From assembly GCA_009781315.1 (NCBI GenBank), contig WQYI01000012.1, forward strand, positions 1 to 50,176: a stretch of DNA of 50,176 nt. The letters run 5' to 3'. This DNA comes from Candidatus Endomicrobium embiratermitis. Its GTDB lineage: Bacteria > Elusimicrobiota > Endomicrobiia > Endomicrobiales > Endomicrobiaceae. This document shows positions 15,988-22,697 of the stretch, in pieces; positions within the stretch are counted from its first letter, which is position 1, and each line of letters opens with the position of its first letter. Position numbers and translations under genes: made by a program. Under the pieces are notes generated by a model, which made no database searches, was not told where the DNA came from, and saw only the letters and a list, made by a program, of their open reading frames with translations.

Positions 15988-16016
15988 ATTATATGATTTA
16001 TAAGACGATATGTCAA
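15988..16016 (-). promoter_or_regulatory. Consensus sigma-70 promoter of hppA
   Basis: On the minus strand TTGACA (16016-16011) and TATAAT (15993-15988) are separated by exactly 17 bases. Transcription would begin about 40 bases before the hppA ATG. The promoter abuts the terminator of the giant gene, so hppA is probably transcribed on its own. Confidence 0.85.
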
Positions 16017-16103: not shown

Positions 16104-19100
16104 TTATGCGGCGCGCAGTATGTCGGCGGAATGTATTGTTGCAGGAACTTGTTTGCGCAGAATATTTTCGACGTCGGGTTTTGCGGCGCGCGTAAATTCT
16201 ACAAACACGCTTCCCGCAAAACCTTTTATAAAACCGTACGCGCTGGCGTCATAAACCTTTTTAACGGCCGCGGACGCGTATTCCGCCGGAATTACAAAAG
16301 ACATGCCGAACAATTTCGATTCGTCAAAACTTATCTCGCCGGATGAAATGTCTTCTTCAAGCTTAACAAACACGCGTTTGCCTTTCTTGTTGACTATGTC
16401 TTTAAGCGCGCTGTCTTCATTTATAATCGGTAAAACGGCATTAAGTAAAAATTGTTTTTTCAGTCTGGAATCTAAAATTTTGTCGGTTTTTATCAATATA
16501 ACGTTTGTTTTGCCGTAAGAATTTAACATGATGTCTGCGGTTTCTAATTCGCCGTTGATATCCATAGTCGTTTTTTGTATAAGTCTGCTTTGCGACGGTA
16601 AAATATCTTTCGTAATTCTATCCTCGAAAGCTATGACGAAAGATTTCCCTTTTTTTCTTGTTAAATCGTCGGCATCCATGAAATTTTCGCTGAAATTTTC
16701 GGACGAGAGCGTTTTCTCCAAAGACGGGACAAACAAGAAAACGTTGTTTTTCAGCGTTTTTTGCTGTCTTCTTTTTTCCGCTTTTCTTATGGTTTTTTCA
16801 AGTTCGATTTTAAAAAAACCGAATCTGGAGCGTAAAAAATCGAAAAGATTATACTCTGCCGATATCCTCAGCAAAGCATCTAAAGAATCTTTGGAAACCA
16901 TATTTTTTTCAATAATCGTTTCGGATACGCTGTCTTCAAATCCGTAGGAGTATACGCCCTTTGCGGGATCCACTACAAAAAGGCTGCCCATATTGCCGTA
17001 TTTCGGAGATATGCCGTGATCGGCGTTTATAAGCCTTATCATATTATTGTCGTCGGATTCTGTCGTGCCTATTTTTTCTTTTTTAAGTTTGTCAAAAGGG
17101 TTGTGTCCGGCAAACAAGAGCAATATCTTGAGAGGATTAAATATTTTCCCAAACCCGGTTTTCTTTTGAAAGGCTATGTCTTTAGGTTTTATTTTTGTGC
17201 TGACGTCGGAGTATATAGATGTTATTAAATTTAACGCCTCCATTATCTGCGAAATATTGTCCTGCCCGAGCTGAAAATTTCTGATGTCCAAACTTATTTT
17301 TTCAAGCCCTTCCAATATCTTTTCTGGAGGATAATATTCGCCTTTGTATCTAAGCCCGCCGCCTCTGGTTCCTATTGAAACGACTCCGTCATCATTAACA
17401 GGCAGAAGCGAATGCATATAAGAAAAGCCGAACATATCTTTAACGTGCAAAGCAAAATTGTTTTTATAAAATTCTCCCAAAGCTCTTATTTTATAATCGC
17501 TTAAATAATTCGAATTATTCAGAAGGCGTCCGTTTTCATAGTTGTGTTCCTTGTCTCCGGCAAGACGTCCGACAATCAGGTTTAAAGAATTATTGTCCGA
17601 ACAAAACTCGTTAAACAGCTTGGTTAACGCGTTATCTTCGGGTATGCTGTTCTTTTCTTTTAAAATTGAAGCCAGCTCTGCTAAAGAAATTCCGGGATTT
17701 TTGGTTAAAGCTTCGATTATGGTTTTGCTTACAAAACCGGATAAATGCTTGTATTTTTCATTTGTTTCGTATATAGTCTCGCCGACTAGTTCCTTGTTTC
17801 TCTGCGCGAGAAAACCGTCTCCCGTAACGCTGCCCCAGTCTTTATGATAAACCCAATCCAAAGCGTTCCATTCGGTGCTTTGATAATTCAAATACATTAT
17901 GGCGTCTAAAATAGCCCATTGCCAGTTTCCTTTTTTTAGTTCTTGGCGCATTTTCTCTTTTTGCGACGATATTACTTCATCAATCAGCGCTTCCATTTTT
18001 TTCCATTCTTCGTGGTGATGCGGATATTTGTTCTTAATGACATCCAATTCGACTTTTCTGTCAATCCACCAATTTATGGACATTTTGTCAGCCGCTTTAA
18101 AGCCCGTATACACCCACACGCCCACGTCATGGCCGATAATTTTTTTCCACCAATTAAGCAGGTAAACGTTTTCTTCTTTGGCAAAGATTCCTGACGGATT
18201 GTTTAGAATGTCTTTTTCTTTAGAGAAATTTATGTTGTCTATTTTTGCGTTTTCGTTTTCCTCTAAATTATACATTTTATTAAACATGTCAATAATCTCT
18301 TTCAGCGTCTTTGTATGCTCTTTTTGTCTCTTATCCGCATTTTCCATATATTGGGCAAGTTTTTTTGCCCATATAATCTGGCTTGTGGCTTCTTGCGCTA
18401 TGTCTTCATTTTTTGACGTTTGGCGTTCCGCAAGATCTTCGACGGGGTTTCTGTAACCGTAAGTTATTTCTTCGTCTTCCAAATCAACTGTCTGATAATT
18501 TTTGGGTATTCCGTTATATCCTTCGTAATAAGGCAAATGCACGGCCGCTACGTTCATAAAAGCGTATAAATCGTGATTTCCGGTAACCGCCACGCCGCTT
18601 CCGGAATCGATAACCGCCTGTATTATTTCCCATGCGGCAATTTGCTCCGGACCTCTGTCCAGCAAATCGCCTAGAAAAATAATTTTAAAATTATCCTGCT
18701 TGGCTTTATTGCTGAGAATATTTTTGAAATTTACCAGATTATTTTCCAAATCTATTTGTTTTTCATCTATATCTAAAGCATGGGCAAGCAGTTCTTTGAG
18801 CCTTTGCGCGCCGCCGTGTATATCGGATAATATGATAACTTTCGGAAGCCTGCCTTTGGCAAACAGATATTTTGTAATAAATTTTATTAAATTGAAAAAA
18901 TCCGTTCTCACTTGGTGCCTGACGGTTACGGCAACGCGCTCTTTAAGAGCTTGTACCGTGCGGTCAATTACATCGTTTATGCGAACCATAATATCTTCTA
19001 CGTTGTAAGCGTTTTCAGGGTTTTTTAATTTAAGTTTATCTTTTAAAACTTTTGCGTTCGCAGCGTTAAGCTTCATTTGTATAAATGCCTTTAATGTTTC

Positions 19101-22100
19101 CACATCCGAAGTCGAATCGCCGATTATTTCCCGCGCGCCGGCTGTTAAAAATAAATCGGGATTTCTTCTGTAGACCGTTTGCCTTATCAGATCGTTTATG
19201 CCGTCGCCGCCTTCTTCGGCAGTATATTTATGGTCAATTAAAAGCTGTGTTCTTTGCGATATGGAAATGTTTTCGTTAAAGAGAATGCTTTGTTCATCGC
19301 TAATCCATATGTCGAATATTCTGTCAATTTCAAATATTGCGGCGAAAGCGTCGGCGTCATGCAATAATCTTGCTTCCGGGTGGGCGTTATGTTCGTCCCT
19401 CGGGATTTTTGTGTTTTCTATTTTTTTATGCCCCAAGCATATTTCTTTCAGTTTTTGTTCGTCTATGTTTTTGTCGGGGAAACGTTTAAAAATGGCATCC
19501 ACCCACGCGGCTGAATTTTCTTCATGCCTGCTTCTTGTGATTAATGTGGAAATATCATGCATAACTACGGCGTATGCAAGATATTTCGGGTCTGTTCTTT
19601 TTGCGAATGAAGGATCTTTCGAAAGTATTTCTATAATGTATTTGTATACAGTAAAAGAGTGGTCGAAATCATGATTTAGGATAACCGCGCGGTTCTTATA
19701 ATATCTTTCAAATAAATACGTCGGTACGGAAGAATGAAGTTTTTGCAGCGCCTCTACAAAATATTCTTCAAATTTAATAAAAAAATCGGCGTCGGGAAAA
19801 GTTTTTGTCCCCAATATTTCAAGCCGAAATCCCTCGAGAGTTTCTTTTAATTCTTCAATACGCACTATGCTGTCAAAAGGTTTTGAAGGTTTTTCGTTTT
19901 TTTCCAGAAGAAGATTAGCGAACAAAATATCTTCATTGGCTTTTCTTTGGTCGCTTGTGTGGCCCGGGTAAGTAAGATATGCTTTTGCGATTGCCCTTAT
20001 TTCGTCATTGTCCGGAGGCATCAGCGCGCCGTTATTCCTAAATATTCCTTCAGTAAGCTGGTTCCGGGCGCTGTCAAAGTTGGAGTATGTGTCCAAATCT
20101 TCAAAAAAAGCGGCATTATCGTCTAAAATTCCGTCCAAAGCGTTTTTTATGCGTTCTATCGCCGTGGGAGTATCTTTAACGCCGCGTTTTATTTTTAAAT
20201 AATAAAGCATGTTGTATATGTCTTTTTGCGATTGTTCTGCTTCGGAAAAATTTCCTACCATTTCATGAGTCAATTCATGAATTATTCCCGCAAAAATAAA
20301 CGCGTGAGCTACGTCTTTGTCTCTTTTTTCAACTTTTGAAATGCCGGAATTCACGTTTATAAAACCGTTTCTGAAATGGTTTTCAAAAAAATGCGAAGAT
20401 TTTTTTACAATCGTTATATTTATGGCCGATTTAAGAAGCGCAGCCGGATTTTTTTCCGGCAATAACATTTTTGCGTTATCCACGGCTTTATCCAGCATTT
20501 CCCGCATCATTTCAGTGTTAAGCCATTGTCCCGCTATTTTATTATCGACATACACCAATATTTTTTTGCCGTCCACGGTTACGGGAAATCCCATGGAATT
20601 TCCTTGCGTCACATTTTTTTCACCGAAACGTTTGACGGCATTTTGGGCGAGATTAGATTTCAGGTGTTTGTCTATGAAAGAAAAAAACGATAAGCGTAAT
20701 CTGTTATTTCTGATTATTCTGAAATATTTCGGCATGTTCATGTGATTGGCGGCGAATTCGTCAAATACTACTCTGTTGTTTCTTAGCTGTAAAATAATTT
20801 CGCGGTTTGAACTTTCGGTCCGTATAATAAATTTGCCGTTTTCAATCTCCGCGGTGAAATAATTTTCAGGAACGGCTTTGTTTTCTTCGGAAAGTTTTTT
20901 TACCCAGTCTTCTATGATTTCTTTCAGTTTTTGGGGAGGAACGTTTTCGGCGTTCGCGCTGATAATTGCCTCAAGCAGCCTGTCAAAATAAGTTTCTCTC
21001 AAAACGGCGTCCGGTATTATATCGGCAAGCATTATCGGAACGAGGCTTAGCGCGTCGGAAGAATAATCTGCGTTTAATCTTGTCGAATATAAAGATTGCG
21101 CTTCTATCGCTTTTAGCGCCGGCGTAACCACGACGTAAGACATTTTATTGTCGGCAAGTTTTTTTAAAAAATCGGTGTGAAAACCGCCTGCGACAAAAAC
21201 GTTTAAAGAATTTGATTTGGAGTTTTTTAAATGTTTTAATGCGTTTTTCAGGAAAACTTCGTCCCTTTTTATGTTTATATCGTAGTAATCTTTGAAAGAG
21301 TCATCGTCTAACAGCCGAAGCCCGTCGTATCCGCCGTAATATTTTTTCAAAAGCGCTTTGTAGCGTCCGAGATTTAAACTGAAATAGCGCCAGTTCTGGG
21401 GAGTCAAATTTAAAGAAAAGTAATTCTCAAGCATTGATGTCATTTTAGAAATCGTAAGCAGCTCGCGCGCGGAAAGATTTCCGTAGTCGTTTTCTATCAG
21501 ATCTTCAATGTATTTGTTAAACTGCCAAAAAGAATCAAAATGGTTTATAGCCGAGCGTTTCGCAGACGTTTCAAGAAAAGCGGCCAAATCCGGATATTGA
21601 TTTGCGAAATCATATCTTTTGTCGTTGAAAATTTCATTAAGTTTGCCGTAGAAAAAATTTACGCTGCCGGAATTATCGTTTAAATCTTTATAATCTTTAT
21701 AACTTAAAGTTTCTCTAAGTTTCAAAATACAGGTTTGAAGCTGTTTTTTTATTTTCCCGGCATTTAAGTTTTCAAGAGTTTCAGAGGAATAAATTTCTTT
21801 GGCAAGCTCGGACTGCTTTACCGGATAAGCGGACTCTATGCTTAAATCATAGATGTCGTTGAATTTTACGTCGGGATTTAACAGAAATTTATTGATTGCC
21901 GAATATTTTCCTTCGAGTTTTTTCGAAATGTCTTTTAAAATGAGTTTTTTAAAAGATTTAATATTTTCCGAATTCTTATTGTAAACATCGTTAAGGCGGT
22001 ACGCGTTTGCCACGTTTGAAAAATATAAATCCCAATCTTCAATGCCGTAGGCAATGTCAAAATTATCTTTCAAAAACAGTTCGGCGCCGCTCAAATAACC

Positions 22101-22493
22101 TATGTTTAAAAGATAGTCCGCGGCTGCGGCGCTGGTGTCCTGCGGCAGAGTTGATATAATATTGTTTTGTATTTTGCCGAAAGGAGCTCCTTCAATGATT
22201 ACTTTTTCCACATTGAATTTTGAATTTAAAGATGAGATTACGTCACAGATATTCTTTTGTACTGCGGGATTGCAGTGCAGATCCTGTATGAAAACTAATA
22301 CTTTGTCTCCGTTTGCAATATAGGTTTCCGTGACCTCTGCGGATGAATTTTTCGAAATAACTGAAGTTATTTCGTTTATAATATCTTCCGAAGTAACGGG
22401 AGATGATGCTTGCAAAGGATATGCGAAAACGCATGACAGGAAGAAACACAATAATGTAAAGACTGAAACCGCGCGGTTAAACGTTTTTTGCAT
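16104..22493 (-). CDS. Giant exported multidomain hydrolase-like protein
   Basis: I do not recognise this 2129-residue protein as a named family. In order it shows: a signal peptide (residues 1 to about 29, ending YPLQASS); an EreA/ChaN/TraB-like domain (about 45-470, with VLVFIQDLHCNP, VIIEGAPFG and VAGGFHTDFL near 437); an HELTHE zinc-metallopeptidase motif (about 739-744); and an HD domain (about 935-1060: NHDFDHS, VMHDIS, LLHDADAF). A PPP-type phosphatase domain runs over about 1219-1850: SDIHGG, GDLLDRGP, GNHDLY, then after a roughly 380-residue insert YMHSLLP (1694), FAGHNP (1796) and NADHG. The last 270 residues match nothing I know. There is no membrane anchor after the signal, so it is probably periplasmic or secreted. 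AGAGGTG lies eight bases before the ATG. Related N-terminal domains occur in very large Omnitrophota/Elusimicrobiota proteins, to my memory only. Confidence 0.8.
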   Translation of the reverse strand: MQKTFNRAVSVFTLLCFFLSCVFAYPLQASSPVTSEDIINEITSVISKNSSAEVTETYIANGDKVLVFIQDLHCNPAVQKNICDVISSLNSKFNVEKVIIEGAPFGKIQNNIISTLPQDTSAAAADYLLNIGYLSGAELFLKDNFDIAYGIEDWDLYFSNVANAYRLNDVYNKNSENIKSFKKLILKDISKKLEGKYSAINKFLLNPDVKFNDIYDLSIESAYPVKQSELAKEIYSSETLENLNAGKIKKQLQTCILKLRETLSYKDYKDLNDNSGSVNFFYGKLNEIFNDKRYDFANQYPDLAAFLETSAKRSAINHFDSFWQFNKYIEDLIENDYGNLSARELLTISKMTSMLENYFSLNLTPQNWRYFSLNLGRYKALLKKYYGGYDGLRLLDDDSFKDYYDINIKRDEVFLKNALKHLKNSKSNSLNVFVAGGFHTDFLKKLADNKMSYVVVTPALKAIEAQSLYSTRLNADYSSDALSLVPIMLADIIPDAVLRETYFDRLLEAIISANAENVPPQKLKEIIEDWVKKLSEENKAVPENYFTAEIENGKFIIRTESSNREIILQLRNNRVVFDEFAANHMNMPKYFRIIRNNRLRLSFFSFIDKHLKSNLAQNAVKRFGEKNVTQGNSMGFPVTVDGKKILVYVDNKIAGQWLNTEMMREMLDKAVDNAKMLLPEKNPAALLKSAINITIVKKSSHFFENHFRNGFINVNSGISKVEKRDKDVAHAFIFAGIIHELTHEMVGNFSEAEQSQKDIYNMLYYLKIKRGVKDTPTAIERIKNALDGILDDNAAFFEDLDTYSNFDSARNQLTEGIFRNNGALMPPDNDEIRAIAKAYLTYPGHTSDQRKANEDILFANLLLEKNEKPSKPFDSIVRIEELKETLEGFRLEILGTKTFPDADFFIKFEEYFVEALQKLHSSVPTYLFERYYKNRAVILNHDFDHSFTVYKYIIEILSKDPSFAKRTDPKYLAYAVVMHDISTLITRSRHEENSAAWVDAIFKRFPDKNIDEQKLKEICLGHKKIENTKIPRDEHNAHPEARLLHDADAFAAIFEIDRIFDIWISDEQSILFNENISISQRTQLLIDHKYTAEEGGDGINDLIRQTVYRRNPDLFLTAGAREIIGDSTSDVETLKAFIQMKLNAANAKVLKDKLKLKNPENAYNVEDIMVRINDVIDRTVQALKERVAVTVRHQVRTDFFNLIKFITKYLFAKGRLPKVIILSDIHGGAQRLKELLAHALDIDEKQIDLENNLVNFKNILSNKAKQDNFKIIFLGDLLDRGPEQIAAWEIIQAVIDSGSGVAVTGNHDLYAFMNVAAVHLPYYEGYNGIPKNYQTVDLEDEEITYGYRNPVEDLAERQTSKNEDIAQEATSQIIWAKKLAQYMENADKRQKEHTKTLKEIIDMFNKMYNLEENENAKIDNINFSKEKDILNNPSGIFAKEENVYLLNWWKKIIGHDVGVWVYTGFKAADKMSINWWIDRKVELDVIKNKYPHHHEEWKKMEALIDEVISSQKEKMRQELKKGNWQWAILDAIMYLNYQSTEWNALDWVYHKDWGSVTGDGFLAQRNKELVGETIYETNEKYKHLSGFVSKTIIEALTKNPGISLAELASILKEKNSIPEDNALTKLFNEFCSDNNSLNLIVGRLAGDKEHNYENGRLLNNSNYLSDYKIRALGEFYKNNFALHVKDMFGFSYMHSLLPVNDDGVVSIGTRGGGLRYKGEYYPPEKILEGLEKISLDIRNFQLGQDNISQIMEALNLITSIYSDVSTKIKPKDIAFQKKTGFGKIFNPLKILLLFAGHNPFDKLKKEKIGTTESDDNNMIRLINADHGISPKYGNMGSLFVVDPAKGVYSYGFEDSVSETIIEKNMVSKDSLDALLRISAEYNLFDFLRSRFGFFKIELEKTIRKAEKRRQQKTLKNNVFLFVPSLEKTLSSENFSENFMDADDLTRKKGKSFVIAFEDRITKDILPSQSRLIQKTTMDINGELETADIMLNSYGKTNVILIKTDKILDSRLKKQFLLNAVLPIINEDSALKDIVNKKGKRVFVKLEEDISSGEISFDESKLFGMSFVIPAEYASAAVKKVYDASAYGFIKGFAGSVFVEFTRAAKPDVENILRKQVPATIHSADILRAA

Positions 22494-22596: not shown

Positions 22597-22625
22597 TTTA
22601 CATTTATATTCGAATTTGATAAATT
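22597..22625 (+). promoter_or_regulatory. Tandem promoter copy 1 (weaker -10)
   Basis: TTTACA (22597-22602), 17 bases, TAAATT (22620-22625). The spacer contains TTATATTCGAATTTGA, almost the same as in the copies at 22669 and 23658. Confidence 0.45.
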
Positions 22626-22668
22626 CCGAAATATAATGTAAATTTTTTGGTGAGATTATTTATGTTAT

Positions 22669-22697
22669 TTCACATTTATATTGGAATTTGATATAAT
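22669..22697 (+). promoter_or_regulatory. Promoter of the beta-barrel gene
   Basis: TTCACA (22669-22674), 17 bases, TATAAT (22692-22697). The spacer TTTATATTGGAATTTGA and the downstream TTCGGT match the rpsO promoter at 23658-23686. Transcription would start near 22704, giving a 150-base leader. Confidence 0.7.

Follow-up and report, generated by a model that had tools for sequence, protein, structure and literature searches.

The gene analysed here lies in a stretch of 50,176 nucleotides from Candidatus Endomicrobium embiratermitis (contig WQYI01000012.1 of assembly GCA_009781315.1, forward strand, hereafter the window), where it occupies positions 16104..22493 of the minus strand, stop codon included, and encodes a protein of 2129 amino acids (aa) in a single open frame. 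Judged from its predicted product, the gene belongs to a lineage-wide family of giants that appear to be exported and that combine a common N-terminal head with variable bodies. The protein is probably an exported phosphohydrolase multi-enzyme that is sorted or matured via its C-terminal tail and acts outside the cytoplasm; its export, activity, substrates and the role of the tail are what we infer. An earlier note on this DNA had described an exported chain with four hydrolase-like modules. All the motifs that it named were found in the translation, and they are not there by chance, since Pfam finds Metallophos and HD domains and orthologues of about 27–32% identity keep the catalytic residues; the interpretation placed on these observations fared less well and is partly supported by the sequence features described below.

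The earlier note had taken the gene to stand alone, which is ruled out by the paralogues in its own genome. A protein search of this 1.9-Mb genome detected eleven further places, with every match confined to the ~600 N-terminal residues; they correspond to nine long open reading frames (ORFs) of 1569–6076 aa, of which one is truncated where its contig ends, and to fragments at contig ends. Including the 2129-aa protein, the genome has at least ten long head-bearing giants, which together amount to ~32,600 residues or about 5% of the genome. Head matches are present in 24 of 40 relatives, and a profile built from 29 head sequences matched 43 of the 150 sampled genomes of the phylum (38 from the class of the window's genome, 5 from other families), with open frames of up to ~12,000 aa. 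The earlier note had also asked whether homologues are confined to Elusimicrobiota and Omnitrophota; the relatives that could be named in a scan with the orthologue alignment as query are almost all from these two phyla, comprising Endomicrobiaceae (from the rumen, the gut of termites and elsewhere) as well as Omnitrophota and further Elusimicrobiota. In several genera of Endomicrobiaceae (loci L068, L070/L080, L071, L075, L076 and L078), a gene for an ABC-F-type ATPase of ~614 aa lies beside or between the giants.

The 2129-aa protein carries both marks of the family, a signal peptide followed by the head and a C-terminal tail ending in ...DILRAA. The conserved tail (...SADILRAA-COOH, 16107..16130, minus strand, as are all coding features below) is diagnostic of the giants and has the consensus [ILMV]-[IL]-x-A-[ASG]-COOH, which is common to the giants of Endomicrobiales and of a sister family. 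Among the distinct complete head-bearing ORFs, 26 of 29 end strictly in [ILMVF][ILMC]x[ASG][ASG] and the other three nearly do so; besides ILRAA in the protein studied here, the complete giants have ILAAA, MLAAA, MLRAA, ILKAS, ILVAA and ILTAA. The tail, strict or relaxed, was also found at 17 further closed giant ends with bodies of up to 11,900 aa (ILSAA, IIGAA, ILKAG, VLSSV, and LFQAAQ in one case), and each of the 25 head-negative ORFs with the tail is the C-terminal part of a giant, open at its 5' end and lying at the edge of a locus; no complete ORF other than a giant was found to have the tail. The possibility that the tail is a general C-terminus of the host genome is ruled out, since among 382 ORFs of at least 100 aa from the window plus a further 400 kb of its genome, the 2129-aa giant is the sole match (0 of the 381 others). 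The claim that the last 270 residues look like nothing known needs to be divided: the body of the C-terminal region (residues 1878–2129, 16107..16862) does have low confidence in the AlphaFold model (predicted local distance difference test, pLDDT, mostly <50), but its final residues are the conserved tail.

The tail could also be read as a degradation signal or a signal for tail-specific proteases, similar to ssrA, in which case the free -AA end would mark the giants for trimming or clearance in the envelope. Tsp/Prc proteases recognise such -AA ends. The tail resembles the ssrA end in having -A[AS] after hydrophobic residues, and a tmRNA of the same genome, as read by eye, appears to encode a tag ending in ...GVMPIAA, a reading that is provisional because ARAGORN made no tmRNA call. 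However, such a signal leaves unexplained the restriction of the tail to head-bearing giants and its presence in almost all of them, and we regard this explanation as quite unlikely. Recognition of the tail by an envelope sorting factor or a C-terminal-processing factor, which might lead to surface attachment, release or maturation, is the role that we prefer.

Export is suggested by the other end of the protein. The N-terminus (residues 1–29, 22407..22493; MQKTFNRAVSVFTLLCFFLSCVFAYPLQASS) is of the Sec type, in line with the signal peptide announced by the earlier note, with a K/R n-region, a hydrophobic core with a Kyte–Doolittle (KD) value of 2.64 over 12 residues and the sequence LQA-SS, and no hydrophobic 19-mer follows it anywhere in the 2129 residues; an exported soluble chain is therefore the simplest reading of the sequence. 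Against this, the hydrophobic segment might be an inner-membrane anchor or be unused, with the enzymes acting in the cytoplasm, where PPP phosphatases, HD proteins and glycolytic enzymes are normally found. This seems highly improbable, because N-termini of the signal-peptide-like n/h/c type are present in 41 of 44 head-bearing ORFs with divergent bodies, because Omnitrophota have the same PPP module after signal peptides that are unrelated (L083, L084, L086 and L088), and because captured glycolytic enzymes of sibling giants, described below, have stand-alone copies that supply the cytoplasm.

The head (residues ~40–463, 21105..22376), which is common to all paralogues, likely belongs to the TIKI superfamily, though its sequence does not prove it. 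It contains the motifs IQDLH (73), IIEG (102) and GGFHTDF (436–442). An alignment of 29 heads, 20–36% identical to that of the 2129-aa giant, has 13 invariant columns (D71, H73, Q79, I82, E101, G102, E138, G150, E152, N160, N407, R410 and F414), and GGFH (439) is nearly invariant in the orthologues. The residues D71, H73, E101, R410 and H439 reproduce the catalytic set of two His, two Glu (Asp) and one Arg. In the published enzymes this set is E3900-x-H3902, E3930, R4001 and H4030 in RRSP and includes H85 and E113 in Bcr135 (PMC6254334). The spacings of the head, 28 residues from H73 to E101 and 29 from R410 to H439, are equal to those of RRSP (28 and 29) and Bcr135 (28) (PMC6254334), and this identity supports the EreA/ChaN-like domain that the earlier note had proposed. 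In addition, a 4034-aa open frame from a deeper relative, which also matches the head profile, matches the ChaN family (PF04187) with 31.2 bits (cut-off 27.7). Weak N-terminal PF04187 matches were also seen in proteins of ~450 aa that are encoded in tandem arrays in one family of Elusimicrobiota (f13, e.g. contigs 6 and 11 of G137 and contig 19 of G146).

Three further modules follow the head, and in orthologues of 27–32% identity from about ten genera their catalytic residues are kept, invariant or nearly so. The HELTHE zinc motif is present at residues 739–744 (20262..20279), within a zinc-peptidase-like HExxHE domain (residues 562–904, 19782..20810) whose H739, E740, H743, E751 and D758 are among these residues. 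The domain may be gluzincin-like: HExxH and a downstream Glu are invariant, with a Glu spacing of +8 here and a longer one in the orthologues; the Foldseek matches of the region, to selecase and M1 aminopeptidases, are weak. The HD domain (residues 907–1159, 19017..19775) has the set H945/H979-D980/H1022/H1045-D1046, corresponding to the H..HD..D metal set of the superfamily, of which H979-D980, H1022 and H1045-D1046 are invariant or nearly so. Its fold, claimed before from the motif, is supported by a full-length Pfam scan (PF01966, 2e-4, at its cut-off) and by a match of the orthologue profile to PDB 2pq7, a 'predicted HD superfamily hydrolase' (2.8e-4), and the domain is helical in the predicted model.

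The last enzyme module (residues 1200–1877, 16863..18896) had been called a PPP phosphatase split by an insert. The fold and an insert of ~380 residues between GNHD and HSLLP are both there, but the module is not a generic PPP phosphatase: it is like class III fructose-1,6-bisphosphatases (FBPases) in sequence and in the predicted structure. The motifs SDIHGG (1223), GDLLDRGP (1275), GNHDLY (1305), YMHSLLP (H at ~1694), FAGHNP and NADHG correspond to the SDxHG, GDxxDRG and GNHD elements and the downstream His motifs, which are invariant in the orthologues, and PF00149 (Metallophos, 1.8e-8) is, besides HD, the only domain found by the full-length Pfam scan. When compared by hhalign with true class III FBPases (PF06874) from the order that includes a Coriobacteriales metagenome-assembled genome (MAG), the module aligned in two collinear pieces, each at about 1e-6. 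The first is the GDxxDRG–GNHD block, and the second is a family-specific C-terminal block of 173 columns past the insert, in which HSLLPV, YKG, GHNP and DxGxS.Y stand against HGCIP, GHVPV and DGGFSKAY. The C-terminal piece alone gave 4.5e-7 against class III FBPases, versus 0.07 for a generic PPP control and 0.25 for the reversed alignment, and this specific match rules out a generic PPP phosphatase with a random insert. Furthermore, the AlphaFold model of residues 1165–2129 has a core with pLDDT mostly of 80–95 (low in the last ~250 residues), and its top PDB match in Foldseek, the only one below 1e-3, is 9a7j_A (E 3.4e-4), which is F16PC, a class III FBPase by entry name. No relative exceeded the family cut-off of PF06874, so the likeness is remote. 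This likeness to class III FBPases adds sugar phosphates to the candidate substrates, besides nucleotides and polymers.

The modules are combined in several ways. Profile mapping found the order head, zinc domain, HD and PPP in many Endomicrobiaceae, the head with PPP only at three loci (L056, L059 and L087), and the head with HD, with or without the zinc domain, in second giants at three others (L052, L053 and L080). The HD module occurs within longer ORFs of one Omnitrophota and one Endomicrobiales record (L081 and L082). In an Omnitrophota locus (L085, 2869-8665), a stand-alone exported head gene of 514 aa, 25% identical to the head studied here (3e-29), lies directly upstream of an exported FBPase-like PPP gene; a stretch of masked bases falls within the ORF of the latter. 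Moreover, the Coriobacteriales MAG has a stand-alone PPP module of 621 aa without a signal peptide (L077, 1050-2915), which is possibly of the donor type or lies on a misbinned contig. An alternative is a delivered polyprotein similar to MARTX, in which the head and/or the HExxHE peptidase would cleave the exported giant and free its modules into or onto protists or bacterial prey, the tail being a secretion or targeting signal. The protease-type head is conserved over wholly different bodies, the modules are complete and interchangeable, the TIKI superfamily includes a MARTX effector endopeptidase (PMC6254334), and protists live alongside the hosts (PMC11257099). However, most paralogues are without the HExxHE domain, and neither a translocation domain nor a dedicated system for secretion was identified, with no search made for either; we hold a delivered polyprotein to be unlikely.

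Sibling giants in the same genome have captured other enzymes. An exported giant of 5383 aa (L016, 1472-17623, contig 18) contains triosephosphate isomerase (TIM), GAPDH, enolase, a histidine phosphatase of the mutase type and a class II aldolase, and one of 5210 aa (L009, 1281-16913, contig 3) contains PGK, a phosphoglucomutase-like region and a methyltransferase; a giant of 3723 aa in a congeneric genome (L065) has an N-terminus very similar to that of the latter. In a third exported giant, of 6076 aa (L011, 952-19182, contig 1), ATPase modules of the AAA_5 type (midasin/dynein-like) occur several times, beside a weak match to VWA, and many giant bodies are without any recognisable domain. 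The active sites of the embedded sugar-phosphate enzymes are intact where they were examined by alignment to solved enzymes: TIM keeps NWK, GHSE and YEPVWAI, with an altered lid loop, GAPDH keeps SCTTN and the His, and enolase, aldolase and PGK keep their catalytic residues. Embedded enzymes of this kind are found repeatedly in several genera: PGK recurs in long frames of three other genomes (G022, G019 and G006), the last of which also has embedded aldolase, and the PGK of two giants scores 491–499 bits, versus 503–551 bits for complete housekeeping genes. The giants are not the sole source of TIM, enolase, PGK and aldolase in the cell, as each of these four, which the check covered, has a stand-alone gene in the genome. 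With the glycolytic modules of the siblings, the FBPase-like module of the 2129-aa giant is in keeping with a wider pattern of sugar-phosphate enzymes in these proteins. It has also to be considered that the giants might be structural or adhesive, with the captured folds as a scaffold whose chemistry is irrelevant. That many bodies lack recognisable domains would agree with this, and most of the published Omnitrophota giants were proposed as adhesins or surface coats (PMC10066038). Nevertheless, conservation peaks at the active-site residues of HD, PPP and HExxHE, the catalytic residues of enolase, GAPDH, aldolase and PGK are preserved inside the giants, and embedded PGK has scores near housekeeping ones, which makes a purely structural role very unlikely.

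Considering both ends and the modules between them, we propose for the multi-enzyme that the chain would leave the cytoplasm by Sec, that the two metal-dependent phosphohydrolase modules (HD and PPP) may strip phosphate from sugar phosphates and/or nucleotides in the gut lumen or at the surface or in the cytosol of protists, and that the head and the HExxHE domain could work as peptidase or esterase against material of the host or prey, or against the giant that carries them. Several points weigh against this proposal. Export, metal binding and activity are predictions from the sequence. The assignment of the head to TIKI depends on the residue pattern and on PF04187 exceeding its cut-off once, in a deeper relative; a direct profile link to the ChaN family was rejected, hhalign being negative, and TIKI structures are absent among the Foldseek matches of the 1136-residue N-terminal model (residues 30–1165, with a low predicted template modelling score, pTM, of 0.42), which were swamped by helical-repeat noise. 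In addition, a 1.6-Mb genome from the same genus that consists of one contig (G002) has no head-bearing giant, the genomes with the family that were placed by name are all MAGs, and in deeper families of Elusimicrobiota (L198–L203) the head is kept while the ends have drifted (EQQ, KRQV, AQQA and LKAA).

More tentatively, and with better chances of being wrong than right by far, Endomicrobiales might display or deliver aldolase, TIM, GAPDH, PGK, phosphoglycerate mutase, enolase and the FBPase-like phosphatase via the common TIKI head and tail, so that these enzymes would act on sugar phosphates of partner cells or lysates. Uptake of sugar phosphates as the purpose is unsupported for the genus, as OPA transporters were reported for two other genera only (PMC11257099). 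If true, such a display would represent a novel type of extracellular metabolism with a new two-ended protein address. Giants of Elusimicrobiota and Omnitrophota resist functional assignment, since they look unrelated singly; a common head and tail would make a single recognisable family of them, whose members could be detected automatically and whose export route a short peptide could probe. The presence of catalytically intact glycolytic modules, and of a phosphatase like FBPase, on chains that appear to be exported raises the question of whether bacteria associated with gut and protists process sugar phosphates outside the cytoplasm.

In the flanking DNA, the gene starts with ATG at 22493, has no internal stops and is preceded by AGAGGTG, which resembles a ribosome-binding site. 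Upstream of it, two operator-like direct repeats, AAATTC[CG]AATATAAATGT (22600..22689, minus strand), are unique to this gene among the sequences compared and were not seen at other giants; an upstream regulatory motif common to the giants of the genome was looked for and not found. Downstream, a perfect 14-bp inverted repeat with a 27-nt loop (16029-16042/16070-16083) lies between the giant gene and a gene for an H+-pyrophosphatase, but it has no T run and the terminator scan makes no call there, which disagrees with the terminator claimed for the gene before. A perfect TTGACA-17-TATAAT promoter match is located ahead of the H+-pyrophosphatase gene (window 15988-16016). This gene also adjoins the orthologue in a congeneric genome (L050 and L073), where the orientation is different, so a functional link between the two genes is unproven. 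No operon was found around the giant gene, and the earlier statement that it has no partner genes therefore stands locally, without operon or shared upstream motif, but not for the genome with its ten long head-bearing paralogues.

Giant genes as such are known in these phyla, whereas the architecture of the head–tail giants was not found described. Published giant ORFs of Omnitrophota and relatives have few annotated domains and are presented as putative proteins of adhesion, coats or degradation (PMC10066038, PMC12057145). In the main comparative genomics paper on Endomicrobia, a text search gave no passage on giants, secretion or adhesion concerning such proteins (PMC11257099), and our literature search, with preprints and most subscription papers outside it, returned no account of the head shared by the giants, of their tail or of the metabolic enzymes that they have captured. 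The giants of Omnitrophota and other Planctomycetes–Verrucomicrobia–Chlamydiae (PVC) phyla are likewise very long exported chains from the same phyla, but published accounts link them to adhesion, coats and polysaccharide degradation, with no mention in the portions seen of a common head, tail or glycolytic modules (PMC10066038, PMC12057145). As for the tail, the ssrA tag has the same free -AA end but is appended, whereas the tail of the giants is native to the gene. C-terminal sorting tags, such as the C-terminal domain (CTD) of type IX secretion, PEP-CTERM and sortase signals, are also short conserved C-termini on otherwise unrelated exported proteins; the tail appears to differ in sequence and length from the CTD, PEP-CTERM and LPXTG types, and the general Pfam scan of the giant, with no dedicated test run, gave none of the type IX, PEP-CTERM or sortase domains. 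The TIKI superfamily (TIKI, EreA/Bcr135, ChaN, HopBA1 and RRSP) has in common with the head D/E-x-H, E at +28, R, H at +29 from R, a helical insertion in between and the GGxH motif, while the head differs in having D for E in the first motif, in giving no significant profile or fold match in the 2129-aa giant, and in being always the N-terminus of giants, save for the stand-alone Omnitrophota copy. With HD phosphohydrolases such as PDB 2pq7, the HD module shares the H...HD...H...HD(A)D pattern and the order of elements, and it differs by extra conserved histidines and by its predicted export. Finally, the PPP module shares with class III FBPases of the Bacillus subtilis Fbp type (PF06874) a core split by an insert and, after the insert, a C-terminal block collinear with HGCIP, GHVPV and DGGFSKAY..TGIAGY, but it falls under the Pfam cut-off, has a longer and unrelated insert, and is predicted to be exported in fusion with other modules.

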